64,000 bases of DNA, from positions 90,010,001 through 90,074,000 of the forward strand of contig NC_133157.1 of the NCBI RefSeq assembly GCF_040802235.1. The letters are read 5' to 3'. The DNA comes from Manis javanica. Taxonomy: Eukaryota > Chordata > Mammalia > Pholidota > Manidae. The position numbers and the translations under genes are program-made. The notes beneath the pieces are model-generated. The model had not been told where the DNA came from and ran no database searches. It saw nothing but the letters and a program-made list of their open reading frames with translations. This document shows positions 7,288 through 62,780 of this stretch, piece by piece. The stretch's first letter is position 1, and every line of letters starts with the position of its first letter.

Positions 7288-7622
7288 TTTTTAAAAATTA
7301 AAGTATCATTTATATACAATCTTATGAAGGTTTCACATGAGCAACATTATGGTTTCAACATTTACTCATATTATCAAGTTCCCCCCACCCCCATTACAGT
7401 CACTGTCCATCAGCATAGTAAGATGCTGTAGAGTCACTACTTGTATTCCCCCAGCTCTACTGCCTTCCCCATGACCTTACTGTACTGTGAGTGCTAATTA
7501 CAATGCCCTTTAATCCCCTTGTCCCTCTCTACCCATCACCCTCCCTAGCCCTTTCCCTTTGGTAACTGCTAGTTCCTTTTTGGAGTCTGTGGGTCTGCTG
7601 CTGTTTTGTTCCTTCAGTTTTG
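7288..7622 (-). mobile_element. Young L1, 5'-truncated (3' UTR only)
   Basis: About 335 bp of young-type L1 3' UTR in minus orientation, ending near the ORF2 stop region (CTGCTGCTGTTTTGTTCCTT at about 7598). Flanks TAAAGCATACC (7277-7287) and TAAAGCGTAAC (7623-7633) match at 9 of 11 positions and look like a decayed target-site duplication. It is more diverged than its neighbours. Confidence 0.75.
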
Positions 7623-8125: not shown

Positions 8126-8139
8126 AAAAAAGGAAATCA
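8126..8139. repeat. Target-site duplication of composite A, left copy
   Basis: AAAAAAGGAAATCA, an exact 14-bp match to 15803-15816. The complementary strand reads TTTTTT/A at the inferred nick, which fits the L1 endonuclease preference for TTTT/A. Confidence 0.92.
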
Positions 8140-8938
8140 GAGGTGGAGGCAAGATGGCAGCATAAGTAGGAGAGTGGGAATCTCCTCCCAAAAACATACA
8201 TATTTTTGAAAATACAACAAATACAACTAATCCTAAAAGAGAGACCAGAAGACACAGGACAACAGCCAGACTACATCCACACGTGTGACAGCCCAGCGCC
8301 TGGTGAAAGGGGTAAGATACAAGCCCCGGTCCGGGGGGACCCGAGCGCCCCTCACCCAGCTCCCAGCAGGAGGAGAGGAGTCGGAGTGGGGAGGGAGAGG
8401 GAGCCCAGGACTGCTAAACACCCAGCCCTAGCCATCCGCACCAGAGCGCAGACACAGTGCATGCGTGGAGGGCTAGAAACTAGGGAAAAAGGGCAGCAAG
8501 ACCTCTGAGCGGGTCCCGAAGCTGATGCCCCTGTGACAAAGAAAAGCGAGTGCTTTTTGAAAGTCTTAAAGGGACAGGACGCCACAGCTGGATGGAAACA
8601 ACCAAGGTCACAGTCCAGAAGCTGGAAATTCCAGGGAAACCTGGGCGCACTAACCCCCTGGGCGACAGCTCTGAGACCCCCTCATGGAGATAAACAGCCA
8701 AACAGCCCCCAGTCCATTACCCCTCCAGGGCCCTGCCACAGCAGAGAAGCAGCCTGAGGCTGGCCACACCCTCAGCAAGGGAGGTTCCTCCATACCCGCC
8801 CGGCAAGACACAAAGACCCAGCCTACATGCAATTGCCCAACACAAGCCACTAGGGGCCGCAGTTGTCCCAGTAAAGAAAGGCCAGTAGCAAGAGGAAAGT
8901 TTGGCCCTCCCAGCTGACAGTCAATAGCACCTGTCAAC
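8140..8938 (+). promoter_or_regulatory. L1 5' UTR / internal promoter of composite A
   Basis: About 800 bp between the left duplication and ORF1, GC-rich with several CpGs in 8320-8520. A YY1-type site, CAAGATGGC, lies at 8150-8158, that is +11 to +19 of the element. Human L1 has a YY1 site at nearly the same place, where it sets the transcription start. The start near the edge argues that this insertion is not 5'-truncated. Confidence 0.75.
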
Positions 8939-9795
8939 ATGAAAAGGCAAAAAAATTTGATCCAGACAAGACTAACCCAGACAGCTTTGGCATGTGCTAC
9001 ATCTTCCGCTGAGAAGGAACCTGGGGAGATAGATTTAACCAGTCTTCCTGAAAAAGAATTCAAAACAAAAGTCATAACCATACTGATGGACTTGCAGAGA
9101 AATATGCAAGAACTAAGGAAGGAGAATACAGAAATAAAACAAGCTCTGGAAGGACTTCAAAACAGAATGGACGAGATGCAAGAGACCATTAATGGACTAG
9201 AAAACAGAGGACAGGAACGCACAGAGGCTGATGCAGAGAGAGATAAAAGGAACTCCAGGAATGAAAGAATTCTAAGAGAGTGGAGTGACCAATCGAAACG
9301 GAACAATATCCGCATTATAGCGGTACCAGAAGAAGAGAGAGAAAAAGGGATAGAAAGTGTCTTTAAAGAAATAATTGCTAAAAACTTCCCCAAACTAGGG
9401 GAGGAAATGGCCTCTCAGACCACAGAGGTACACAGAGCTCCCATGACAAGGGATCCAAGGAGGGCAACACCAAGACACATAATAATTAAAATGGCAAAGA
9501 TCAAAGACAAGGACAAAGTATTAAAGGCAGCCAGAGAGAAAAAAAGGTCACCTACAAAGGAAAACCCATCAGGCTATCATCAGACTTCTCAACAGAAACC
9601 CTACAGGCCAGAAGAGAATGGCATGATATACTTAATGCAATGAAACAGAAGGGCATCGAACCAAGACTACTGTATCCAGCATGATTATCATTTAAATATG
9701 AAGGAGGGATTAAACAATTCCCAGACAAGCAAAAGTTGAGGGACTTTGCCTCCCACAAACCACCTCTACAGGGTATCTTAGAGGGACTGCTCTAG
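8939..9795 (+). pseudogene. L1 ORF1 (RNA-binding chaperone), frameshifted
   Basis: ORF1 protein of L1 is a trimeric coiled-coil RNA-binding protein that packages L1 RNA. Codons 1-200 or so are open from the ATG at 8939. A coiled-coil region with repeated E/K/L heptads (LQRNMQELRKENTEIKQAL) is followed by the RRM-like part (RNNIRIIAVPEEE). The frame shifts in the A-rich run near 9540-9550. The rest of the C-terminal domain continues in another frame to a TAG at 9793-9795, with an extra TGA at 9682-9684 inside it. The start was chosen as the first ATG after the 5' UTR, just upstream of the coiled coil. Confidence 0.88.
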
Positions 9796-9990
9796 ATGGG
9801 AGCACTCCTAAAAAGAACACAGAATAAAACACCCAACATATGAAGAAGGGAGGAGGAGCAATAAGAAGGGAGAGAAATAAAGAATCATCAGACCATGTTT
9901 ATAATAGCACAACAAGTGAGTTAAGTTATACAGTAAGATAGTAAAGAAGCTAACCCTGAACCTTTGGTAACCACAAACTTAAAGCCTTCA

Positions 9991-12900
9991 ATGGCAATAA
10001 GTACATACCTTTCAATAATCAACCTAAATATAAATGGACTGAATGCACCAATCAAAAGACACAGAGTAATAGAATGGATAAAAAAGCAAGACCCATCCAA
10101 ATGCTGCTTACAAGAGACTCACCTCAAACCCAAAGACATGCACAGACTTAAAGTCAAGGGATGGAAAAATATATTTCATGCAAACAACAGAGAGAAAAAA
10201 GCAGGTGTTGCGATACTAGTATCAGACAAAACAGACTTCAAAATAAAGAAAGTAACAAAAGACAAAGGACATTACATAATTATAAAGGGCTCAGTCCAAC
10301 AAGAGGATATAACCATTATAACTATATATGCACCCAATACAGGAGCACTAACATACCTGAAACAAATACTAACGGAACTAAAGGAGGAAATAGAATGCGA
10401 TGCATTCATTCTGGGAGACTTCAACACACCACTCACTCCAAAGGAGAGATCCACCAGACAGAAAATAAGTAAGGACACAGAGGCACTGAACAACACACTA
10501 GAACAGATGGACCTAATAGACAGACATCTACAGAACTCTACATCCAAAAGCAACAGGATACACATTCTTCTCAAGCACACATGGAACATTCTCCAGAATA
10601 GACCACATACTAGGCCACAAAAAGAGCCTCAGTAAATTCCAAAATATTGAAATCCTACCAACCAACTTTTAAGACCACAAAGGCATAAAACTAGAAATAA
10701 ACTGTACAAAGAAAGCAAAAAGGCTCACAAATACATGGAGGCTTAACAACACGCTCCTAAACAATCAATGGATCAGTGACCAAATCAAAACAGAGACCCA
10801 GCAATATATGGAAACAAACGGCAACAACAACACAAAGCCCCAATTTCTGTGGGATACAGCGAAAGCAGTCTAAAGAGGAGAGTGTATAGCAATCCAGGCA
10901 TATGTAAAGAAGGAAGAACAATCCCAAATGAATGGTCTAATGTCACAATTATCGAAATTGGAAAAAGAAGAACAAATGAGGCATAAGGTCAGCAGAAGGA
11001 GGGACATAATAAAGATCAGATAAGAAATAAATAAAATTGAGAAGAATAAAACAATAGCAAAAATCAATGAAACCAAGAGCTGGTTCTTTAAGAAAATAAA
11101 CAAAATAGATAAGCCTCTAGCCAGACTTATCAAGAGGAAAAGAGAGTCAACATGAATCAACAGAATCAGAAAGGAGAATGGAAAAATTCACGGACCACAC
11201 AGAAATACAAAGAATTATTAGACAGTACTATGAAAACCTATATGCTAACAAGCTGGGAAACCTAGGAGAAATGGACAACTTCCTAGGAAAATGCAACCTT
11301 CCAAGACTGACCCAGAAAGAAACAGAAAATCTAAACAGACCAATTACCAGCAATGAAATTGAAGCAGTAATCAAAAAACTACCAAAGAACAAAATCCCCG
11401 GGCCAGATGGATTTACCTCGGAATTTTATCAGACATATAGGGAAGACAAAACACCCATTCTCCTTAAAGTTTTCCAAAAAATAGAAGAGGAGGGAATACT
11501 CCCAAACTCATTCTATGAAGCCAACATTACCCTAATACCAAAACCAGGCAAAGACCCCACCAAAAAAGAAAACTACAGACCAATATCCCTGATGAATGTA
11601 GATGCAAAAATACTCAAGAAAATATTAGCAAACTGAATTCAAAAATACATCAAAAGGATCGTACACCATGATCAAGTGGGATTCATCCCAGGGATGCAAG
11701 GATGGTACAACATTCGAAAATCCATCAACATCATCCACCACATCAACAAAAAGAAAAACATAAACCACACGATCATCTCCATAGATGCTGAAAAAGCATT
11801 TGGCAAAATTCAGCATCCATGCATGATAAAAACTCTCAGCAAAATAGGAATAGAGGGCAAGTACCTCAACATAATAAAGGCTATATATCATAAACCCACA
11901 GCCAACATTATACTGAACAGCAAGAAGCTGAAAGCTTTTTCTCTGAGTTCAGGAACTAGACAGGGATGCCCACTCTCCCCACTGTTATTTAACATAATAC
12001 TGGAGGTCCTAGCCACGGCAATCAGACAAAACAAAGAAATACAAGAAATCCAGATTGGTAAAGAAGAAGTTAAACTGTCACTATTTGCAGATGACATGAT
12101 ATTTTACATAAAGAACCCTAAAGACTCCATTCCAAAACTACTAGAAGTGATATCGGAATACAGCAAAGTTGCAGGATACAAAATTAACACACAGAAATCT
12201 GTAGCTTTCCTATACACTAACAATAAACCAATAGAAAGAGAAACCAGGAAAACAATTCCATTCACCATTGCATCAAAAAGAATAAAATACCTAGGAATAA
12301 ACCTAAACAAAGAAGTGAAAGACCTATACTCTGAAAACTACAAGTCACTCTTAAGAGAAATTAAAGGGGACACTAACAAATGGAAACTCATCCCATGCTC
12401 TTGCCTGTAAGAATTAATATCGTCAAAATGGCCATCCTGCCCAAAGCAATATACAGATTTGATGCAAGCCCCATCAAATTACCAGCAACATTCTTCAATG
12501 AATTGGAACAAATAATTCAAAAATTCATATGGAAACACCAAAGACCCCAAATAGCCAAAGCAATCCTGAGAAAGAAGAATAAAGTAGGGGGGATCTCACT
12601 CCCCAACTTCAATCTCTACTATAAAGCCATAGTAATCAAGACAATTTGGTACTGGCACAAGAACAGAGCCACAGTCCAGTGGAACAGACTAGAGACTCCA
12701 GACATTAACCCAAACATATATGGGCAATTAATATGTGAGAAAGGAGCCATGGACATACAATGGCAAAATGACAGTCTCTTTAATAGATGGTGCTGGCAAA
12801 ACTGGACAGCTACATGTAGGAGAATGAAGCTGGACCATTGTCTAACCCCATATACAAAGGTAAATTCAAAATGGATCAAAGACCTGAATGTAAGTCATGA

Positions 12901-13813
12901 AACCATTAAACTCTTGGAAAAAAACATAGGCAAAAACCTCTTAGACATAAACATGAGTGAACTCTTCTTGAACATATCTCCCTGGGCAAGGAAAACAACA
13001 GCAAAAATGAACAAGTGGGACTATATTAAGCTGAAAAGCTTCTGTACAGCAAAAGACACCATCTATAGAACAAAAAGGAACCCTACAGTATGGGAGAATA
13101 TATTTGAAAATGACAGATTCGATAAAGGCTTGACCTCCAGAATATATAAAGAGCTCACATGCCTCAACAAACAGGAAACAAATAATCCAATTAAAAAAAT
13201 GTGCAGAGGAACTGAACAGACAGTTCTCCAAAAAAGAAATACAGATGGCCAACAGACACATGAAAAGATGCTCCACATCGCTAATTATCAGAGAAATGCA
13301 AATTAAAACTACAATGAGGTATCACCTCACACCAGTAAGGATGGCTACCATCCAAAAGACAAACAACAACAAATGTTGGCGAGGCTGTGAAGAAAGGGGA
13401 ACCCTCCTACACTGCTGGTGGGAATGTAAATTAGTTCAACTATTGTGGAAAGCAGTATGGAGGTTCCTCAAAATGCTCAAAACAGACTTACCATTTGACC
13501 CAGGAATTCCAATCCTAGGAATTTACCCTAAGAATGCAGCAATCAAGTTTGAAAAAGACAGATGCATCCCTATGTTTATCGCAGCACTATTTACAATAGC
13601 AAGAATTGGAAGCAACCTAAATGTCCATTGGTAGATGAATGGATAAAGAAGATGTGGTACATATACACAATGGAATATTACTCAGCCATAAGAAGAGGGC
13701 AAATCCTGCCATTTGCAGCGACATGGATGGTGCTGGAGGGTATTATGCTCAGTGAAATAAGCCAAGCAGAGAAAGAGAAATGCCAAATGATTTCACTCAT
13801 CTGTGGAGTATAA
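9991..13813 (+). pseudogene. L1 ORF2 (endonuclease / reverse transcriptase), broken
   Basis: ORF2 protein nicks target DNA and reverse-transcribes the RNA there. The apurinic-type endonuclease comes first, with the NINGLN asparagine, a QETH catalytic glutamate and the GDFN motif near 10420. Next come the Z region (IPGPDGF), the reverse transcriptase with the FADD active site at 12084-12095, and the C-terminal cysteine motif ([19 protein letters not shown]). The frame is broken by a shift near 10530-10540, stops between 10635 and 11160, a TGA at 11634-11636 (also present in copy B), a shift near 12400 and shifts near 13200-13310 and 13600. The native C terminus ends at TAA 13811-13813. The start is the methionine just before the endonuclease fold, and an in-frame ATG at 9964 is an alternative. 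Confidence 0.9.
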
Positions 13814-14149
13814 GAAGAAATGAAAAACTGAAGGAACAAAACAGTAGCGGAATCACAGAACCCAAGAATGGACTAACAGGTACTGAAAGGGACTGGGGAG
13901 GATGGGTGGGTAGGGAGGGATAAGGTGGGGGAAGAAGAAGGGGGGTATGAAGATTAGCATGCATGGGGCCGTGGGAGAAAGGGGAGGGCTGTATAACACA
14001 GAGAAGATAAGTAGTGATTCTATAACATTTTGCTATGCTGATGGACAGTGACTGTAAAGGGGTTTAGAGGGTTGTCCTGGTATAGGGGAGAGCCTAGTAA
14101 ACATAATATTCTTCATGTAAGTGTAGATTAATGATAACAAAAAAAAATA
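13814..14149 (+). repeat. L1 3' UTR and A-rich tail inside composite A
   Basis: A G-rich stretch (13890-13995, several GGGG runs) is followed by the conserved block with CTGATGGACAGTGACTGTAA at about 14037. The UTR ends with GATTAATGATAAC and an A run at 14138-14147. In a normal L1 the element would stop here. The G-rich 3' UTR is typical of L1. Confidence 0.85.
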
Positions 14150-15439
14150 AGCAGTTCCTGGGTGGTGACCTCCAATGAGTTCTACACAATGATATAAAGG
14201 GCATATCAAAGTGTGGGCAAAGGGTCTGTTTGTGTTCATACAGAGGATCAAAGCCTAATTTGGCTACCCAGAAAATGAACTAAGATACGATATGAAGAAG
14301 AACTTCCAACATCAGCAGTCTCTGGAAGAGTCATACCAGAAGATGATCATCAAAAAACCTCAACAAAGATCCAGGTGATGCTGCAGTTGTAGCTGCATTC
14401 ATCCTACCGGTTCCTGGACTTACCATTGGAATGAAGAAGGAGATATCTAAGCTGGCCTGTGCATACAGTAAAACAACAATTTGACTGGATCCATACTGTC
14501 AGAACTCAACCAAGAATTAGGAGAAGTGCAAGTTGCAGTGCTCCAAAATCTTACAACTACAGACTATCTACTGTTAAAGAACATATCGGATGTGAACAGT
14601 TCCCAGGAATGGGTTGTTTTAACTTGTCTGATTTCTCTCAGACTGTTCAAGTTCAGTTGGACAATATCCATCATATCATAGATAAATTCTCACAAATGCC
14701 TAGGATGCCTAACAGGTTTTCTTGGTTTCACTGGAGATGGCTGGTAATTATAGATCTGCTTTGGTTATGTAACTGTATTCCTATTGTGTTAATGTGTGTG
14801 CACAATTTAAATAGTATTTTAAAACCTATACATGCTTAAGTTACTCTGCAAGAAGATATGTCAAAGAAATAATCAATCTTCCCATGTTTTCTTCTGCCTG
14901 CTACTTCTATAGCTTTTCTTCTTCCTTCCTAATTACAACCTTAAATAGAATTCGTGCCTCATATCAAATTTACCAAGTATCATAATTCCTCCAAGTGGTA
15001 AAGATACCTCAAGACAAATGCTGGGCATAGAAGCCACAGGGCATAAATCTGCAAAGAAGTAAAAAGCTAACCTTTTCAAACAATATGGCTTCTCTCTCAC
15101 TTACCAACTTTACATTTCCCTGTATGGCCCCGGAAGATAACTGGTTAGCCAGAGACGGGTAAGATTCCTCAAGGGAGGAACAACCTAAGACAGGCACAGT
15201 CGCAGCGGGTCCATCAGGTGAGAAATTGGGGATCAACAGAGGTGAGGCTTAGAACCTCACCACCCCCCATTTTGAGAGAAATCTTCTGCATCTGTGGATG
15301 TTTTATTGCCGTTGTCTAGCTTGGATTAACACATCATCTACAGGCACACACCTGATCATCTACATTTGCTCTCTTACAGCACTAAACTATGTTTTCTACC
15401 TTTATCTTGCATCTACCTACCACTTCAGCATTTTATTAA

Positions 15440-15466
15440 AAATAATAATAATAATAATAATAATAA
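15440..15466 (+). repeat. (AAT)n microsatellite
   Basis: About nine AAT units directly upstream of the ERV polypurine tract. The equivalent place in copy B is shorter and interrupted. Confidence 0.9.
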
Positions 15467-15475
15467 AGGGAGAAA
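15465..15475 (+). promoter_or_regulatory. ERV polypurine tract
   Basis: AAAGGGAGAAA immediately before the TG that starts the LTR. This is the canonical position of the plus-strand primer of a retrovirus. Confidence 0.85.
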
Positions 15476-15802
15476 TGTGGGATCCACATATAAATCAAGT
15501 ATGAAAATCAAACGAATATTCATATTTGACTTGATTGTTTATAGTTCATAATGCGTGATCAAAACCGAAAGTTTCTGTGATGACTGCCCTTGTACTGTTC
15601 ACCATGTAAGAACTTATTCACTATGTAAGAATTTGTTCACCATGTAAGAACTTGTTCGTTATGCTTCAGAAGATTGGAGAATGACGAGAATTAGGCTTGG
15701 GGTGGATTAATGATTGTGCATTGGGCATTGACTCCCCTATACAGAATTTTATTGTTGTTAACAACCATTTGATCAATAAATATGAGAGATGCCCTCTCAA
15801 AG
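15476..15802 (+). repeat. ERV LTR (U3-R), ending at its polyadenylation site
   Basis: The LTR starts TGTGGGATCC. U3 holds three perfectly spaced 19-bp repeats (15598-15616, 15617-15635, 15636-15654; consensus TTCACCATGTAAGAACTTG), which look enhancer-like. The signal AATAAA is at 15775-15780. The sequence stops about 20 nt later at CTCAAAG and runs into A's, so U5 is missing. That is the 3' end expected of a polyadenylated RNA, not of integrated proviral DNA. Confidence 0.85.
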
Positions 15803-15816
15803 AAAAAAGGAAATCA
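15803..15816. repeat. Target-site duplication of composite A, right copy
   Basis: AAAAAAGGAAATCA, identical to 8126-8139. Confidence 0.92.
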
Positions 15817-18700
15817 ACCTATGTTTCCTTATTTTTTATTGCAGCCACCATTTAAAAACACATCAATAAATGTTACAAAAATATATAGAAGCATATGATT
15901 TTAGGAATTTCTGAGAATTACTATTTCTCATTCCTGAATTCCAAAGATTAATATCTGTTGAGAATTTTGGAACACTCAAGAAGCTTTGCTAGTTAAAGTG
16001 GGGACCCCTAGGATTTGGAAAATGGACCAAAAAAGAAGCAGATGTGCTGGGCAGAGCCAGGAAATGGTAATGATGTCACGGGCAGCACAGTTAAAGTCAT
16101 GGTAAAGTAAGGCCCTGATGGTCTTCATACAGATTAGCCTGGGAGATTGTCAAAATAAAACCATATTTGTACTGAATACCTGCAGGTATTCAGGAGAAAA
16201 CTGCCCCCAGCACTGCTGGAGGAGCTGAGAGGCAGAGCTGGACTGAATGGTGACCTGGGAATGGTCACCGAATGGGTGACCCAGGGAAACACTTGGGTGA
16301 CCTGGGGTCAGGCCTGCGCCTCCCTCCGCAGAGCCAGCAGGAGCTGGCATGAACGAGGAGGCATCCCAGGGTTTGTGAGACACATGAAGGGGATGGATGA
16401 AGGGGATTTCTCCTTCAGAGAGGAGCAGAGTGTCCTGAGAGGGCACGCCAGCTGTGAGGCTTGAAGGGTAGTGAGGTGGCTTGAAGTGCTGGGACGAACT
16501 CCGTCCATCTGGCAGTGTGAGTGGTGAGGCCTTGAGCTGACCTTCCAGGGTCCAAGATGGAGAACTGCACCCGGTGGTCCCACTGCAGAGCTGTGACAGA
16601 CCCCTTCCACACTGGGGTCAGAATCACAGTGTTCGATGGCAGTAAGGGCTGCCCATAAGTTATATTTTTATTTCCCACCTGTGTCAGATGCTAAGATCCT
16701 ATTCTTGGTAAAATACAGCAGCCTTCTCAGAGGCATGGGAAATACCTTTGGGGAAACCCCCTCACTCAAGCCTCTGTGCCCTTCTCAGAGTCCTTGGAAA
16801 TAGGAAAGACAGAAAGGCGCAGCCTCATGGAAGACATGATTCTATGACCAACCAGGGTGTAGAGGAAGGTGCTTCAGAGTGAGACAACGGCCGGTTCACA
16901 CAGGCCCGGTGGAGTCAGCTCATGCCTGGCTTTGGTCAGTGAGCCAGACTCTCAGGAAGACGCAGCTGCTCTCTCTGTCCCCAGACTGCAGGCGCTGTGA
17001 TAGCCCGGGCTCTCAGGGAGAAGGCAGTGTGATGCAGAGCTGAGGGCCCAGCATGTGGAGCCAGACAACACCAAGAGCGAGTCCCAGCTCAGCCCTCATG
17101 GCTTTATGTGGCCCCTCCCTTTAGTCACCTCGGGGGTCCACTCCACAGGTGTCAGTAGGCTGGACTGAGGTAGCACGTTCTGCTTCCTGGTCCACACTGA
17201 GTGCCTGGTAGCTTTTACACTTAAATGAAGGATAGGTTTCGAGGTTTAATCTCTTGCTTTGATTTGATCCACATCAGTGGGTCACATTGCTGTGGTTGCA
17301 TCAGTGTAGAGCAAAGAACTGCCTCTGGTTGGAGACAGGCTGCATGTTCTTACATATTAAAGCAGTTGATTAGCTGTGAAAAATAGGTGAGATTTCAATG
17401 GTTTCCAGTGATAGCTTATGTGTAAAGCTCAATAACCAGCTGTGATTGGAAATGCTTACTTCTAATACTTCCCCCAGGAGCTGCTGAGGGTCTCTGTCCC
17501 TGGTCAGTCCTCACTGATCTACTAGCCCCACTTCCTTCTGCTGGCCTACATCCCCCAGGTGCCTCCTGGCCACCCAGCAGTTGGTTCATCTGTGCCCCAT
17601 CTTCACATCCATGATGATCTAGCTTCCATCCTGTTGTTCAAAACTTTGTCCCATGCCCTTCCAGGAATCGGTTAGATTCTGCTAAGCCAGGGTGGGCCTC
17701 AGACACAGCACACTGGCTTTCTTATGTCAGTTCACCTGCCTTCTTGGGGCACCACAACAGCCCTGAGGGGGTGGGGGTAAGGGCCACTGGGAACCAGCTC
17801 TGCCAAGAGTCAGCCCTCAGCTGACCTACCTGCCATGTGCCATAAACTGGAAATTCATTTGTGTTTATATCAATTTTCTTTTAAAATGAAACACCTCCAG
17901 GGAGGATTGACATATATACAGTTATAAGTTTAGTATCTATGATTACTACAATGTGGAGTAACTGGTCAGAAATGAATCTCCCAACTCCAATGTTACTGGT
18001 ATGGGAAAGTTCCATCTACCTTAAAATATTCTTTATATGTCATTTCCAGAAAAACATTGTTGGCAAAGGGCTAGACTACTTTTTCTCTAAAATAATCTTC
18101 ATTTATCTTAATGATCTATAATGGATTCATCATCCCTGAATTTCAATGCCCATACCAATCCTACATATTTTTGTTTACCCTGATTATCATGAACATGTAA
18201 TACATTTTCTTATCTACATGCCAGTTTCCGAGTTGGTCATCGCTGTAACTGATGGTGTTCTGGGTTTAAGGGCATCTCTGATGGGGAGCAGGGGAAGCAC
18301 ACTCATGGTCTGATTTGAGAGGCAACCTCTCCTAAATCATGTTCCTCCACTGACCCTGTGCATATCCCTGAGTAGCCAGTGTTCAGCCATTAGTCCAGGC
18401 CTTTTAGAGAGACTTCAGAGGGGCTTTAATTGTCATCTAGTTCCATTCCCTCACTGATCTTCACAGAGAGGAGACCTGAGGTCCTCTGTGGCTGGCATCT
18501 CAGCTGAGCTCACAGGGAGCAGCGCTGGGTTTCTACAACTCCAGTCTCCTCACTGGGGAGCAGTGCATTTCCCACCTTGGATGAGTAAGGAGTGGGCACT
18601 TCCCATGGCCACAGTCACCAGGCAAATGCCATCTGGAAGGAGTAATGCCTAAAAGTGTTACTACCCTCTCTTTGGTAGTAACTCTTAATGTAGGAAAGAA
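15817..18700. other. Intergenic sequence, nothing recognised
   Basis: About 2.9 kb without a named repeat or gene. 16245-16310 has a cluster of GGTGACC-type short repeats on both strands. 17040-17180 and 17480-17850 are moderately GC-rich. No open frame longer than 100 codons with splice signals was seen. Confidence 0.4.
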
Positions 18701-18704
18701 AAAG

Positions 18705-19070
18705 GAAAATCAAAAGTAGGACCAGTCTACTGGATCTGGAGCGGCCCTGTGCAAGGGAAACACAGTGCAAGCCACATGTGTAATTTTGTTTCCTAGTAGC
18801 CACATTAACAAGTAAAGAATCTAAATATATTTTAATTCTAGGTATGTCTTAATTACCTAATTAATTCTAATAAATATCATTTATTTAACCTGACACACAC
18901 AAAACACAATTTCAATATAATGATTATTAACAAGACATTTTACATTATTTTTGTACTAAGCTTTGACATCTGGAAGGCATGTTACACATTTGGCACACCT
19001 CAGGACTGTCCACATATCAAGTACTCAATAGCCACATGTGGACAGCGTATTGGAGAGCATGAGCCTAGTG
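18705..19070. repeat. hAT-type DNA transposon remnant (MER5-like)
   Basis: Contains the repeated block TAGTAGCCACATTAACAAGT near 18795 and, towards the other end, AATAGCCACATGTGGACAGC near 19028. Between them lies an AT-rich core with CATTTTACATTATTTTTGTA. This arrangement is typical of MER5-like non-autonomous hAT elements. A second similar remnant is at 48245-48430. Confidence 0.55.
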
Positions 19071-19172
19071 TACTCTCTGCTGAGTCTCTCTGTTTTCTGT
19101 TTGCTGCATTAGTGTGTGGGGCTGGGAGGTCAGGGCCATCACCCTGATACTTCATACGCTATAAATAAGAGG

Positions 19173-19184
19173 ATCATATACTTT
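19173..19184. repeat. Target-site duplication of composite B, left copy
   Basis: ATCATATACTTT, an exact 12-bp match to 26508-26519. Confidence 0.9.
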
Positions 19185-19190
19185 TTTTTT

Positions 19191-19514
19191 TGAGAGGGCA
19201 TCTCTCATATTTATTGATCAAATGGTTGTTAACAACAATAAAATTCTGTATAGGGGGGTCAGTGCTCAGTGCACAATCATTAATCCATCTCAAGCCTAAT
19301 TCTCGTCAGTCTCCAATCTTCTGAAGCATAACGAGCAAGTTCTTACATGGTGAACGAATTCTTACATAGTGAATAAGTTCTTACATGGTGAACAGTACAA
19401 GGGCATTCATCACAGAAACTTTCGGTTTTGATCATGCATTATGAATTATAAACAATAAGGTCAAATATGAATATCCGTTTGATTTTTATACTTGATTTAT
19501 ATGTGGATCCCACA
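19191..19514 (-). repeat. ERV LTR (U3-R) of composite B
   Basis: Inverted LTR beginning TGTGGGATCC at 19514. AATAAA is at 19215-19210 on the minus strand, and the element ends about 20 nt further at a run of about ten A's. The same three 19-bp U3 repeats lie at 19336-19392. As in copy A, U5 is absent. Confidence 0.85.
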
Positions 19515-20839
19515 TTTCTCCCTCTATTATTATTATTATTTTTATTTTTAATAAAATGCTGAAGTGGTAGGTAGATGCAAGATAAAGGTAGAAAACATAG
19601 TTTAGTGTTGTAAGAGAGCAATTGTAGATGATCAGGTGTGTGCCTGTAGACTATGTGTTAATCCAAGCTAGACAAGGGCAGTAATACATCCACGGATGCA
19701 GAAGATTTCTCTCAAAACTGGGGGCGTGAGGTTCTAAGCCTCACCTCTGATGATCCCCAATTTCTCACCTGACGGACACGCTGCAACTGTGCCTGTCTTA
19801 GGTTGTTCCTCCCTTGAGGAATCTTACCCGTTTGTGGCTAACCAGTCATCTTCTGGGGCCATACAGGGAAATGTAAAGTTGGTAAGTGAGAGAGGAGCCA
19901 TATTGTTTGAAAAGGTTAGCTTTTTACTTCTTTGCAGATTTATGCCCTGTGGCTTCTATGCCCAGCACTTTTCTCGAGGTATCTTTACCACCTGGAGGAA
20001 TTATGATGCTCGGTAAATTCAATATGAGGCACGAATTCTATTTAAGGTTGTAATTAGGAAGGAAGAAGAAAAGCTACAGAAGTAGCATATGGAAGAAAAC
20101 ATGGGAGGATTGATTATTTCTTGGACATATCTTCTTGTAGAGTACCTTAAGCATGTATAGGTTTTAAACTACTAACTAACTTGTGCACACATATTAACAT
20201 AATACGAATACGGTGACATAAACTAAGCAAATCTATAATTACCAGCCATCTCCAGTGAAGCCAAGAAAACCAGTTCAGCACCCTAGGCATTTGTGAGAAT
20301 TTGTCTATGATATGATGGATATTGTCCAACTGCACTTGAACAGTCTGAGAGAAATCAGACAAATTAAAGCAACCCATTTCTGGGATCTGTTCACATCCCA
20401 TATGTTATTTTAACTGTAGATAGTCTATAGTCATAAGATTTTGGAGCGCTACAACTTGCACCCCTCCCAACTCCTGGTTGAGTTCCAACAGTACAGATCC
20501 AGTCAAATTCGTTGTCTCACTGTATGCACATGCCAGCCTAGACATCTCCCTCCTCATTCCAGTGGCAAGTCCAGGAAATGGTGGGATGGACGCAGCCACA
20601 TACGCAGCATCGCCCGGATCCCTGTGGAGGCTTTTTGATGATCATCCCCTGGCACGAGTCCTCCAGAGAGTGCTGATGCCGGAAGCTCCTCCTCATATCG
20701 TATCTTAGTTCATTTTCTGGGTAGCCAAGCTAAGCCTTGATCTTCTGCATAAAAACAAACAGACCCTTTGCCCACACTTTCACATGCCCTCTATACCACT
20801 GTGTAGAACTCATTGGAGGTCAGCACACAGGAACTGCTC
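19515..20839 (-). pseudogene. ERV env transmembrane remnant in composite B
   Basis: Homologous to 14150-15475. A polypurine tract sits at 19525-19515. The degraded envelope transmembrane region is visible mainly in two open pieces: 20599-20405 (fusion-peptide-like and first helix) and 20401-20147 (second helix and membrane-anchor-like segment), separated by a stop or shift. It begins at the same GCAGTTCCTG as copy A. No other retroviral gene is present. Confidence 0.7.
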
Positions 20840-20872
20840 TTTTTTATTTTTTTATTTTTTTTAATTTTTATT

Positions 20873-21004
20873 AAGAGAAAGGAATATTATCAGAAAAGAG
20901 TACCTCCATAGCCGATCATCTGACCCCCTCTAAGAGATCAAATTAGGGATATTTAAAGCATGCGTTAATCTTTGATTTACCAATAGTTTTATCCTATCAA
21001 GGAG
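20873..21004 (-). other. Unidentified A-flanked module between L1 tail and ERV in composite B
   Basis: About 130 bp with ordinary base composition, lying between two A-rich stretches on the minus strand (20872-20840 and 21048-21005). Composite A has nothing here: its L1 A-tail meets the ERV directly. I do not recognise the sequence. It could be an older piece of the ERV, a captured transcript or a small retroposon inserted into the tail. Confidence 0.6.
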
Positions 21005-21048
21005 TAATCCCCCTTTTCTTTCTTTCTTTTTTTTCCTTTTTTTTTTTT

Positions 21049-21380
21049 ACTCTTTAATCTACACTTACATGAAAAATACTATGTTTACTATGCTCTCTCC
21101 TATATCAGGTCCCTGCTACAAACCACCTTACAGTCACTGTGCATCAGCATAGCAAAATGTTGTAGAATCACTACTTGTCCTCTCTGTGTTGTACAGCCCT
21201 CCCTCCCCTTTCTCCCTCCGCCCCATGGATGCTAATCTTAATATCCCCGTCCTTCTTTCACACCCTTATCCCTCCCTGCCCACCCATCCTCCACAGTTCC
21301 TTTCCCTTTGGTACCTGTTAGTCCATTTTTGGATTCTGTAATTCTGCTGCTGTTTTGTTCCTTCAGTTTTTCCTTTGTTC
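21049..21380 (-). repeat. L1 3' UTR of composite B
   Basis: Same 3' UTR subtype as composite A (ends GTGTAGATTAAAGAG before the A's, with CAGTGACTGTAAGG inside). The five stand-alone young L1s here end in a different variant, with TGTACATTAATGATACC-like or similar termini. Confidence 0.8.
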
Positions 21381-24300
21381 TTATACTCCGCAGATGAGTG
21401 AAATCATTTGGTATTTCTCTTTCTCCGCTTGGCTTATTTCACTGAGCATAATACTCTCCAGCTCTATCCATGTTGCTGCAAATGGTAGGATTTTTCCACT
21501 TCTTATGGCTGAGTAGTATTCCATTGTGTATATGTACCACGTCTTCTTTATCCATTCATCTACCGATGGACATTTAGGTTGCTTCCAATTCTTGACTATT
21601 GTAAATAGTGCTGCGATAAATATAGCGGTGCATCTGTCTTTCTCAAACTTGATTGCTGCGTTCTTAGGGTAAATTCCTAGGATTGGAATTCCTGGGTCAA
21701 ATGGTAAGTCTGTTTTGAGCATTTTGAGGAACCTTGATACTGCTTTCCACAATGGTTGAACTAATTTACATTCCCACCAGCAGTGTAGGAGGGTTCCCCT
21801 TTCTCCACAGCCTTGCCAACATTTGTTGTTGTTTGTCTTTTGGATGGCAGCCATCCTTACTGGTGTGAGGTGATACCTCATTGTAGTTTTAATTTGCATT
21901 TCTCTGATAATTAGCGATGTGGAGCATCCTTTCATGTGTCTGTTGGCCATCTGTATTTCTTTTTTAGAGAACTGTCTGTTCAATTCCTCTGCACATTTTT
22001 TAATTGGGTTATTTGTTTTCTGTTTGTTGAGGCATGTGAGCTCTTTATATATTCTGGAGGTCAAGCCTTTATCGAATCTGTCATTTTCAAATATATTCTC
22101 CCATACTGTAGGGTTCCTTTTTGTTCTATAGATGGTGTCTTTTGCTGTACAGAAGCTTTTCAGCTTAATGTAGTCCCACTTGCTCATTTTTGCTGTTGTT
22201 TTCCTTGCCCAGGGAGATATGTTCAAGAAGAGGTCATTCATGTTTATGTCCAAGAGGTTTCTGCCTATGTTTTTTTCCAAGAGTTTAATGGTTTCATGAC
22301 TTACATTCAGGTCTTTGATCCATTTTGAATTTACTTTTGTATATGGAGTTACACAATGGTCCAGTTTCATTCTCCCACATGTAGCTGTCCTGTTTTGCCA
22401 GCACCATCTGTTGAAGAGACTGTCATTTTGCCATTGTATGTCCATGGCTCCTTTATCAAATATTAATTGACCATATATGTTTGGGTTAATTTCTGGAGTC
22501 TCTAATCTGTTCCACTGGTCTGTGGCTCTGTTCTTGTGCCAGTACCAAATTGTCTTCATTACTATGGCTTTGTAGTAGAGCTTGAAGTTGGGGAGTGAGA
22601 TGCCCCTTACTTTATTCTTCTTTTTCAGGATTGCTTTGGCTATTTGGGGTCTTTGGTGTTTCCATATGAATTTTTGAATTATTTGTTCCAATTCATTGAA
22701 GAATGTTGCTGGTAATTTGAGAGGGATTGCATCAAATCTGTATATTGCTTTAGGCAGGATGGCCATTTTGACGATATTAATTCTTCCTAGCCATGAGCAT
22801 GGGATGAGTTTCCATTTGTAAGTGTCCCCTTTAATTTCTCTTAAGAGTGACTTGTAGTTTTCAGAGTATAGGTCTTTCACTTCTTTGTTTAGGTTTATTT
22901 CTAGGTATTTTATTCTTTTTGATGCAATGGTGAATGGAATTGTTTTCCTGATTTCTCTTTCTATTGGTTCATAGTTAGTGTATAGGAAAGCTACAGATTT
23001 CTGTGTGTTAATTTTGTATCCTGCAACTTTGCTGTATTCCAATATCAGTTCTAGTAGTTTTGCAGTGGAGTCTTTAGGATTTTTTATGTACAGTATCATA
23101 TCGTCTGCAAATAGTGACAGTTTAACTTCTTCATTACCAATCTGGATTCCTTGTATTTCTTTGTTTTGTCAGATTGCCATGGCTAGGACCTCCAGTACTA
23201 TGTAAATAACAGTGGGTAGAGTGGGCATCCCTGTCTGGTTCCCGATCTCACTGTTCAGCTTCTCACTGTTCAGTATAATGTTGGCTGTGGGTTTATGATA
23301 TATGGCCTTTATTATGTTGAGGTACTTGCCCTCTATTTCCATTTTGCTGAGAGTTTTTATCATGAATGGATGTTGAATTTTGTCAAATGCTTTTTCAGCA
23401 TCTATGGAGGTGATCATGTGGTTTTTGTCTTTCTTTTTGTTGATGTGGTGGATGATGTTGATGGATTTTCGAATGTTGTACCACCCTTGCATCCCTGGGA
23501 TGAATACCACTTGGTTATGGTGTATGATCCTTTTGATGTATTTTTGAATTCAGTTTGCTAATATTTTGTTGAGTATTTTTGCATCTACATTCATCAGGGA
23601 TATTGGTCTGTAATTTTCTTTTTTGGTGGGGTCTTTGCCTGGTTTTGGTATTAGGGTGATGTTGGCTTCATAGAATGAGTTTGGGAGTATTCCCTCCTCT
23701 TCTATTTTTTGGAACACTTTAAGGAGAATGGGTATTATGTCTTCTCTGTGTGTCTGATAAAATTCCGAGGTAAATCCGTCCGGCCCCGGGGTTTTGTTCT
23801 TGGGTAGTTTTTTGATTACCATTTCAATTTCTTTGCTCGTAATTGGTTTGTTTAACTTTTGTGTTTCTTCCTTGGTCAGTCTTGGGTGGTTGTATTTTTC
23901 TAGGAAGTTGTCCATTTCTTCTAGGTTTTCCAGCTTGTTGGCATATAGGTTTTCATAGTAGTCTTTAATAATTCTTTGTATTTCTGTGGAGTTTGTCGTG
24001 ATTATTCTGTTCTCATTACTGATGCTGTTGATTTGTTTTGATTCTCTTTTTCTCTTAATAAGTTTGGCTAGAGGCTTATCTATTTTGTTTATTTTCTCAA
24101 AGAACCAGCTCTTGGTTTCATTGATTTTTGCTATTGTTTTATTCTTCTCAATTTTGTTTATTTCTTCTCTAATCTTTATTATGTCTCTCCTTCTGCTGAC
24201 TTTAGGCCTCATTTGTTCTTCTTTTTCCAGTTTCGATAATTGTAATGTTAGACTATTCATTTGGAATTGTTCTTCCTTCTTCAAGTGTGCCTGGATCGCT

Positions 24301-25196
24301 ATATACTTCCCTCTTAAGACTGCTTTTGCTGCATCCCACAGAAGTTCGGGCTTTGTGTTGTTGTTGTCATTTGTTTCTATATATTCCTTGAGCTCTATTT
24401 TGATTTGTTCATTGATCCATTGATTATTTAGAAGCATGTTGTTAAGCCTCCATGTGTTTGTGAGCCTTCTTGTTTTCTTTGTAGAATTTATTTCTAGTTT
24501 TATACCTTTGTGGTCAGAAAAATTGGTTGGTAGAATTTCAATATTTTGGAATTTACTGAGGCTCTTTTTGTGTGCTAGTATGTGGTCTATTCTGGAGAAT
24601 GTTCCATATGCAATTGAGAAGAATGTATATCCTGTTGCTTTTGGATGTGGAGTTCTATAGATGTCTATTAGGTCCATCTGTTCTAGTGTGTTGTGCAGTG
24701 GCTGTGTGTCCTTACTTATTTTCTGCCCAGGGGATCTATCCTTTGGGGTGAGTGGTGTGCTGAAGTCTCCTAAAATGAATGCATTGCAGTCTATTTCCCT
24801 CTTTAGTTCTATTAGTATTTGGTTCACAAATGCTGGTGCTCCTGTGTTGGGTGCATATATATTTAGAATGTTTATATCCTCTTGTTGGACTGAGCCCTTT
24901 ATCATTATGTAGTGTCCTTCTTTATCTCTTGTTACTTTCTTTGTTTTGAAGTCTATTTTGGCTGATATTAGTACTGCAACCCCTGCTTTCTTCTCACTGT
25001 TGTTTGCCTGAAATATGTTTTTCCATCCCTTCACTTTTAGTCTCTGCATGTCTTTGGGTTTGAGGTGAGTTTCTTGTAAGCAGCATGTAGATGGGTCTTG
25101 CTTTTTTATCCATTCTATTACTCTGTGTCTTTTGATTGGTGCATTAAGTCCATTTACATTTAGGGTGACTATTGAGAGATATGTAGTTATTGCCAT
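21381..25196 (-). pseudogene. L1 ORF2 (endonuclease / reverse transcriptase), nearly intact but interrupted
   Basis: Long open frames cover the endonuclease and Z region (to the stop at 23550-23552) and, after a gap, the FADD active site (23100-23111) through the reverse transcriptase, the cysteine motif ([19 protein letters not shown]) and the native C terminus at 21381. Breaks: a TGA at 23550-23552 at the same codon as in copy A, and a scrambled stretch at about 23170-23280 that removes the normal sequence just before FADD. So no full ORF2 protein is made. Endonuclease residues in NVNGLN and QETH are kept, while the usual GDFN reads GDFS in this copy, a change at a catalytic asparagine. Confidence 0.9.
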
Positions 25197-25391
25197 TGCA
25201 GGATTTAGATTCGTGGTTACCAAAGGTTCAAGGTTAGCTTCTTTAGTATCTTACTGCCTAACTTAGCTCACTTATTGAGCTGTTATATACACTGTCTAGA
25301 GATTCTTTTCTTCTCTGCCTTCTTATTCCTCCTCCTCCATTCTTCATATGTTGTGTGTTTTGTTCTGTGTTCTTTTTAGGAGTGCTCCCAT

Positions 25392-26248
25392 TTACAGCAG
25401 TCCCTGTAAGATGCCCTGTAGAGGTGGTTTGTGGGAAGCAAATTCCCTCAGCTTTTGCTTGCCTGGAAATTGTTTAATCCCACCATCATATTTAAATGAT
25501 AGTCGTGCTGGATACAGTATCCTTGGTTCAAGGTCCTTCTGTTTCATTGCATTAAATATATCATGCCATTCTCTTCTGGCCTGTAGGGTTTCTGTCGAGA
25601 AGTCTGATGTTAGCCTGATGGGTTTTCCTTTATAGGTGATCTTTTTCTCTCTAGCTGCCTTTAAAACTCTTTCCTTGTCCTTGATCCTTGTCATTTTAAT
25701 TATTATGTGTCTTGATGTTGTCCTCCTTGTATCCTTTCTGTTGGGGGTTCTGTGTATTTCTTTGGTTTGTTCGATTATTTCCTCCCCCAATTTGGGGAAG
25801 TTTTCAGCAATTATTTCTTCAAAGAGACTTTGTATCCCTTTTCCTCTTTCTTCTTCTTCTTGTACCCCTATAATACGAATATTATTCCTTTTGGATTGGT
25901 CACATAATTCTCTTTGTGTTGTTTCATTCCTGGAGATCCTTTTATCTCTCTCTATGTTAGCTTCTATATGTTCCTGTTCTCTGGTTTCTATTCCTTCAAT
26001 GGCCTCTTGCATCTTATCCATTCTGCTTATAAATCCTTCCAGGGATTGTTTCACTTCTGTGATCTCCTTCCTGACATCTGTGATCTCCCTCCGGACTTAA
26101 TCCCATTGCTCTTCCATTTTTCTCTGCATCTCTGTTAGCATGTTCATGATTTTTATTTTGAATTCTTTTTCAGGAAGACTGGTTACGTCTGTCTCCTTCT
26201 CAGGTGTTGTCTCTGTGATCTTTGTCTGCCTGTAGTTTTGCCTTTCAT
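25392..26248 (-). pseudogene. L1 ORF1, broken in the N-terminal part
   Basis: From about 26054 down to 25392 the coiled coil and C-terminal RNA-binding domain are open and end normally (220 codons, including RNNIRIIGVQEEE and the SFKYDGGIKQFPGKQKL segment). Upstream, the probable ATG at 26248 reads out of frame, and a TAA lies at about 26098-26100. The C-terminal half is intact here and broken in copy A, so the two copies decayed independently. Confidence 0.82.
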
Positions 26249-26507
26249 GGTGATAGAGATAGTTTGCAGAGCTGGTACAAGTGATATCTGGGAAAGCTTT
26301 CCTTCTTGTTGGTTTGTGGCCTTCATCTCCCCCTTCGCGAGACGCTGGTTTCTTGCAGGTGTGGTTGTTGTCTGGATGTTGTCCTGTGTCCTCTGGTCTC
26401 TATTTTTGGAAGAGTTGTGTTTGTTATATTTTCATAGATATATGTGGTTTTAGGAGGAGATTTCTGCTGCTCTACTCATGCCACCATTCTGGCTCTGCCG
26501 CTCGAGA
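26249..26507 (-). promoter_or_regulatory. Short L1 5' UTR of composite B
   Basis: Only about 260 bp against about 800 bp in composite A. The outer end is homologous (an AGAATGGTGGCATGAGTAG stretch replaces the YY1-type AAGATGGCAGCATAAGTAG of copy A). Roughly 540 bp of the internal GC-rich part is missing, which suggests an internal deletion or a different promoter variant. Confidence 0.65.
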
Positions 26508-26519
26508 ATCATATACTTT
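26508..26519. repeat. Target-site duplication of composite B, right copy
   Basis: ATCATATACTTT, the partner of 19173-19184. Confidence 0.9.
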
Positions 26520-62672: not shown

Positions 62673-62780
62673 GTGTTCCCCTAGTGTTTCCCTAGTGTTC
62701 CCCTAGTGTTTCCATACAGTGTCTGTACAGGTCTGTGTGTGTTCCCCTAGTGTTTCCGTACAGTGTCTGTACAGGTCTGA
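62673..62780 (+). repeat. 44-bp tandem duplication with partial third unit
   Basis: Units begin GTTCCCCTAGTGTTTCC and continue TACAGTGTCTGTACAGGTCT. Copies lie at 62697-62740 and 62741-62778 with one A/G difference (CCATAC versus CCGTAC). A partial unit sits upstream at 62673-62696. This is a candidate variable tandem repeat. Confidence 0.85.

Follow-up and report, generated by a model that had tools for sequence, protein, structure and literature searches.

A large L1 family in the pangolin Manis javanica that appears to carry a retroviral segment as its 3′ end

Results

Two composite units in the window

The window, by which we mean the whole stretch of 64,000 nucleotides of Manis javanica DNA that was analysed, holds two composite units, copy 1 on the plus strand (~8140-15799) and copy 2 on the minus strand (~26504-19191). 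As the original prediction had described, each consists of an L1, an A-tract and a retroviral segment (hereafter the module) that ends at the polyadenylation site of an LTR. The features of the two units are as follows.

8126-8139, no strand: copy 1 5′ target-site duplication, AAAAAAGGAAATCA, a 14-base exact match to 15803-15816
8140-14139, plus strand: copy 1 L1 (5′UTR, ORF1, broken ORF2, 3′UTR) up to its A-tract; ORF1 domain Transposase_22, E 5.7e-20
14140-14150, plus strand: copy 1 A-tract at the join, seen in the sequence; 20 fetched long loci join at a like A-tract
14151-15799, plus strand: copy 1 retroviral module, starting with GCAGTTCCTG and ending at the polyadenylation site of the LTR; join counted 633 times genome-wide
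14435-14839, plus strand: copy 1 open piece of 134 aa, envelope TM region; the TM relative P0130 matches ASLV TM, E ~4e-11
15476-15799, plus strand: copy 1 LTR part, starting TGTGGGATCC, with AATAAA at 15775, seen in the sequence
15803-15816, no strand: copy 1 3′ target-site duplication, an exact match to 8126-8139
26508-26519 (to 26505 with one mismatch), no strand: copy 2 5′ target-site duplication, AAAGTATATGAT, 12 exact bases
21050-26504, minus strand: copy 2 L1, its 5′ region shortened, with ORF1, an ORF2 split into two open pieces, and 3′UTR; Transposase_22, E 1.2e-24, and Exo_endo_phos, E 1.1e-18
20838-21049, minus strand: copy 2 A-rich tract, extra stretch (GGGGGATTACTCC... from 21013 downwards) and A-rich tract, placed by alignment; likely integrase-derived, as read by eye
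19191-20837, minus strand: copy 2 retroviral module, ending at the polyadenylation site of the LTR, from self-comparison and alignment
19173-19184, no strand: copy 2 3′ target-site duplication, pairing with 26519-26508

In both copies, the retroviral part stops ~19 nt past the AATAAA, inside the LTR beginning TGTGGGATCC. Each whole unit had been predicted to carry its own target-site duplication, and this was borne out by 14 exact bases around copy 1 and 12 around copy 2, the latter extending by eye to 15 bases with one mismatch. By contrast, the two retroviral parts do not begin at the same base, as had been thought, given that the alignment leads from the L1 A-tract of copy 1 directly into GCAGTTCCTG, whereas copy 2 carries an additional 197 nt between the L1 and GCAGTTCCTG, a form that proved to be a large family in its own right. 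In pairwise alignments, the L1 bodies of the two copies were 91.1% identical (K2P 0.095) and their retroviral parts likewise 91.1% identical (K2P 0.096), so that both parts have diverged equally.

The description of both units as full L1s held for the presence of ORF1 and of parts of ORF2, but not for their completeness: the longest ORF2 frame of copy 1 spans 308 aa, copy 2 has its ORF2 broken into two pieces with 2 stops, and its 5′ region lacks 538 alignment columns of copy 1. Self-comparison of the 64-kb window matched the copy 1 module only with that of copy 2. Further L1 3′ ends lie in the window near 7335, 29379, 45475 and 58051, and a short tandem repeat with a 44-nt unit (97% matches) occupies 62695-62779.

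The join recurs throughout the genome

The genome was searched over 2.56 Gb in 63 contigs. A 201-nt query over the copy 1 join yielded 1151 first-look candidates, and all of the 40 that were scored, which include the query's own copy, matched (38 over the full query, with 90-100% identity). The exact pattern of the L1 end, 5 to 35 nt and GCAGTTCCTG occurred 633 times in the genome, and its reversed control 0 times. For the copy 2 form, a join query gave 1110 candidates, of which 40 were scored and again 40/40 matched, 17 over the full query and one being the query's own copy; the exact copy 2 type join occurred 4421 times, compared with 0 for the reversed control. These counts agree with the prediction of a repeated mobile unit, they extend the crossing of the junction far beyond the two window loci, and they rule out the idea of chance neighbours or of a family of two copies only.

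The retroviral word of the copy 2 form was counted 6958 times (control 3), at least 63.5% with the L1 end in place, and the module-start word 4196 times (control 0). Among 96 listed module starts on contig C1 below 71 Mb, 34 showed an exact copy 2 type join, 15 a copy 1 type join and 47 neither. The starts with neither may reflect either decay of the search words or modules standing without L1, and we read them as mostly chimeric. At a divergence of a few percent, many joins must no longer contain an exact word. Three inverted pairs of joins on C1 (1823148/1827587, 4500775/4505214 and 23476341/23480780) were each spaced by 4439, probably representing segmental duplicates or an assembly effect.

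Target-site duplications enclose whole units

Besides the window copies, 36 loci were fetched with the join queries (20 long loci, 14 loci of the second form, L030 and L032), a procedure that selects for the join itself and not for its surroundings. The join was present in all 36, and also in L047, which was fetched solely by its best envelope TM match and shows an L1, the extra stretch and the module. All of the 20 long loci (9.9 kb) have the direct L1-module join, and in each the module stops no more than 3 nt from the polyadenylation site of the LTR. The unit begins with the 5′ end of the L1 in 12 of them, is clearly 5′-truncated in 5 and is interrupted or rearranged in 3 (L011, L012 and L014). 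The second-form loci uniformly contain the L1, the extra stretch and the module (14/14), and 12 of the 14 reach the polyadenylation site. L030 has the 3′ portion of its module inverted relative to the rest, in a twin-priming-like manner. Irregular arrangements were seen in L014, with a second LTR piece directly behind the unit, in L034, whose L1 part is immediately preceded by a module end, and in L040, with a module repeated internally.

A duplication was found around the whole unit in both window copies, L009, L010, L018, L033 and L035, and one enclosing the unit together with a second tail behind it in L015, L019, L021, L024, L025 and L027. These unit duplications measure 11-17 bases, and the units begin with L1. 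Among the units with a duplication, L015, L024, L027, L033 and L035 are 5′-truncated, and the last two are truncated within the L1 3′ end, their target sites being duplicated over 15 bases with one mismatch and over 17 bases, respectively. In the 10 long loci that lack a second tail, for which no shuffles were run, repeats of at least 13 bases were found in L009, L010, L013 (A-rich) and L018, while the duplication was weak or absent in L011, L012, L014, L016, L017 and L028. In the 10 loci with a second tail, the duplication beat 100/100 shuffles in the six named above and failed to beat all 100 shuffles in L020, L022, L023 and L026, leaving 10 of the 20 long loci in which a clear duplication was not found. 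Wherever duplications are clear, they enclose whole units, contrary to the alternative of an ERV piece bearing its own duplication inside an L1 tail.

The L1 part and the codon record of ORF2

ORF1 carries the L1 RNA-binding domain in both window copies and ORF2 the endonuclease domain in copy 2, at the E values listed above, and the reverse transcriptase was recognised through matches to mammalian L1 ORF2, with Pfam RVT_1 matching the broken ORF2 piece at E 0.004, under its cut-off. The hallmarks of L1, namely target-site duplications, an A-tail and 5′ truncation, are present in the family, a clear duplication being seen in some loci and not in every one. Among the 120 ORF2 relatives listed, one was a Manis javanica protein (P0116), 86% identical over 49% of the query and pointing to a pangolin as the likely host, and the remaining 119 were 46-70% identical. 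Three listed proteins (P0026, P0057 and P0059) are mammal-like L1 ORF2 proteins filed as Trypanosoma, Entrophospora and Pseudomonas, likely a contamination of public records.

Intact ORFs were found in none of the 22 copies that were read, out of thousands in the genome, and the longest frame was 724 aa (L023). In ORF2, replacements were rarer among shared changes (N:S 202:153) than among private ones (806:250; Fisher p 1.1e-11) over 21 of 22 copies, L015 having no ORF2 and L011 being left out of the codon test, and part of the shared changes may be older than the join. Near-fixed differences between the second-tail copies and the rest showed an N:S of 12:10 (p 0.024). The depletion of replacements among shared relative to private changes indicates that the ORF2 of the source elements was under purifying selection, and hence that these elements were likely autonomous. 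The label of an autonomous-type L1 is thus backed by the codon statistics, but not by an intact copy among those read.

The retroviral module

The module had been taken for an ERV env remnant plus LTR. Its TM region and LTR agree with this, but the retroviral part seems to start further upstream, in pol. The first 0.3 kb of the module together with the extra stretch gave a best match to retroviral integrase at E 0.2 and no Pfam match, and may tentatively be read by eye as a decayed integrase end; should this be correct, the extra stretch would be part of the retrovirus itself. The module has no gag, and its pol consists of this supposed end only. A relative of the TM piece, P0130 (76% identical to the piece in copy 2), matches the avian alpharetrovirus TM structures 5h9c and 4jpr with E ~4e-11. 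The 28 protein matches to the TM piece all came from short contigs, Pfam matched the piece weakly, and the surface unit appears to be missing upstream of TM. Outside the genome, no relatives of the module emerged: the LTR word occurred 0 times in viral contigs, phage records contained none, and 16 pattern matches to the TM protein in viral contigs yielded 0 confirmed cases.

In the genome, a TM query of 146 aa gave 32346 first-look candidates by a loose criterion, and all of the 150 best-scored places were 88-95% identical to it, ~125 of them without a stop. Most of these 150 places have an open frame of 174-176 codons, high scores favouring open frames. Six such places lie on C1 below 71 Mb, 4 with an exact L1 join at the expected upstream distance and 2 without. 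In an alignment of 35 module rows plus the partial L047, the N:S of the TM frame was 149:38 for private and 100:40 for shared changes (p 0.09), and the frame was free of in-frame stops and frame-breaking gaps in 7 of these 35 rows plus the partial L047. On a more far-reaching reading, an autonomous mammalian L1 lineage would have taken a retroviral pol-env-LTR end, including its polyadenylation signal, as its own 3′ end and risen, in several sub-forms, to be one of the main retrotransposons of its host, with the envelope TM frame of ~175 codons serving as a third, used frame; we regard this full scenario as quite improbable.

Sub-forms, age and exchange of parts

The family comprises at least three sub-forms, defined by the direct join, by the join with the extra stretch, and by the direct join followed by a second tail of 207 nt. 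The second tail, shared by 10 of the 20 long loci (L015 and L019-L027), is a common sequence behind the LTR A-tail with an AATAAA near its end and an A-tail of its own. It may resemble the L1 3′UTR ends of other mammals and is likely a second transduction.

In a tree rooted on two plain L1s as the sole outgroup, 32 chimeric L1 3′ ends formed one clade (100/100), with direct-join copies basal under this root. The copy 2 form was a clade in both the L1 and the module trees (14/14 copies, 100/100), and the second-tail form was a clade in the module tree (9/10 copies, 100/100), with L019 outside. The L1 tree was built without L014, L015, L024, L033, L035 and WL29, the module tree without L040, L043 and three plain L1s (no module), and L030 and L031 are in neither. 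Against this rooting, the putative integrase reading, which runs continuously through the extra stretch, and the presence of this stretch in L047 would suggest that the longer form is the older one. In that case, the direct-join form would have lost the stretch between the L1 A-tract and the A-rich run just before GCAGTTCCTG.

Mean pairwise module divergence within the three forms was 4.6-5.8%, half of which is 2.3-2.9%, corresponding to ~10-13 million years at 2.2e-9 per year, an age that is only indicative because the loci were picked by similarity. This rate is given in its source as an average for mammals and was used for lack of a pangolin rate (PMC4643047). At least two types of 5′UTR occur, intermingled among the two 3′ forms, and pairwise distances in the L1 were uncorrelated with those in the module (r -0.02 over 120 pairs). 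In addition, L011 is a mosaic, with an ORF2 ~84% identical to copy 1 and a 3′UTR and module ~94-97% identical, so that its old ORF2 is combined with a young 3′ end, and likely arose by template switching. Parts thus seem to be exchanged among members of the family, for which template switching may be the mechanism.

Discussion

Origin and spread of the chimeric L1

The two window copies belong to a large L1 family with a retroviral 3′ segment (likely an integrase end, envelope TM and an LTR cut at its polyadenylation site), which, as we consider likely, was gained once by read-through and then copied as a single RNA. An L1 transcript would have read through into an ERV remnant behind it, with the 3′ end forming in the LTR, at its AATAAA; the L1's own proteins would have copied the joined RNA by target-primed reverse transcription, and the new 3′ end would have been inherited, the chimera persisting as an autonomous L1 lineage. 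Within 113 nt of its end, the copy 1 L1 has neither AATAAA nor ATTAAA and one AGTAAA, and the LTR has an AATAAA. Because the L1's own end lacks AATAAA, reading through to that of the LTR may have provided a better end. The near-identical K2P values of the L1 bodies and the modules in the window also speak for joint copying.

The main rival places the founding event in reverse transcription, with the enzyme jumping from the L1 template onto an ERV mRNA, perhaps at the A-tract, and the later spread being identical. The A-tracts that flank the join, the stop of the ERV part at the 3′ end of an mRNA and the exchange of parts within the family would all suit such a switch. However, each form has a single join position across thousands of copies, and the forms make up clades, both of which suit a single founding event; the second, similar gain of a tail is a usual product of transduction. 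Neither a founder locus nor a parent ERV turned up that would set read-through apart from template switching, which we nevertheless hold to be the less probable origin, at odds well short of even.

Far less probable still is a module that exists in its own right, as a SINE-R-like retroposon or an ERV fragment, and that is abundant alone and comes to lie behind L1s by chance, for example through insertion into their A-tails. Although the 47 of 96 listed module starts without an exact L1 word upstream and the second LTR piece directly behind the unit of L014 could be taken in this sense, the join base and the L1 type are constant, the duplications lie outside whole units, the 5′ truncations fall inside the L1, and the proportion of extra-stretch words retaining the L1 end stays at or above 63.5% despite word decay. 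Segmental duplication of one or a few chimeric loci, as might be imagined from the three evenly spaced inverted pairs on C1, has next to no credibility as the source of the many copies, given the mean pairwise divergence within forms, and is refuted for the loci read, which differ in flanks, duplications, A-tails and truncation points.

Comparison with known systems

An ERV provirus has two LTRs with gag and pol between them and a duplication of 4-6 bases, whereas the units described here begin with L1, lack gag and are flanked by the longer duplications given above. They come closer to L1 3′ transduction, known from human L1 families, in which sequence from behind the A-tail, followed by a second A-tail, is carried inside the target-site duplication. 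The second A-tail and the duplication outside the transduced piece are found here as well, but the piece is a retroviral pol/env/LTR end that has been kept over thousands of copies with sub-forms, one of which has gained a second tail.

Replacement of the 5′ end is known from L1 lineages. Mammalian L1 lineages have been described as recruiting new 5′UTRs and then expanding (PMC5872511), which, as far as that description goes, has the uptake of a foreign end and the expansion in common with the present family, except that there the 5′ end and here the 3′ end was replaced or extended. In Manis pentadactyla, an alpha-type ERV lineage has been reported, and the provirus ERV-Gamma.b9-Mpen is described as carrying a nearly complete LINE-1 between ENV and the 3′ LTR (PMC12584738). 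Compared by description only, this is the arrangement that a founder would need, although the account given there treats it as an insertion into one provirus and not as a mobile family. The mouse Axin1 insertion (PMC6500023), again compared by description only, is likewise a chimeric L1, but apparently a single phenotype-causing insertion rather than a family.

The original prediction had called such an element little described, and in line with this a targeted literature search brought up no paper in which an L1 family ends in retroviral sequence, although repeat libraries may contain the family in pieces. Repeat annotation would likely treat these units as separate L1 and LTR pieces and would thereby distort ERV and solo-LTR counts in the host.

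In SVA elements, the SINE-R consists of the env end and LTR of HERV-K, joined to Alu-like and VNTR parts in a non-autonomous element. As in SVA, the 3′ end of an L1-mobilised element is formed here by the end of env and an LTR that stops at its polyadenylation site (20/20 long and 12/14 second-form loci), but the module is attached to an L1 that has ORF1 and ORF2, and in 12 of the 20 long loci the unit begins with the 5′ end of that L1. In this family, an L1 lineage appears to have acquired its 3′ end from a retrovirus and to have retained it over thousands of insertions and several sub-forms. Within a single genome, it thereby becomes testable whether an L1 competes better with a strong, borrowed polyadenylation site, and also how SVA-like composites start, since the family looks like a SINE-R-like module still on its carrier.
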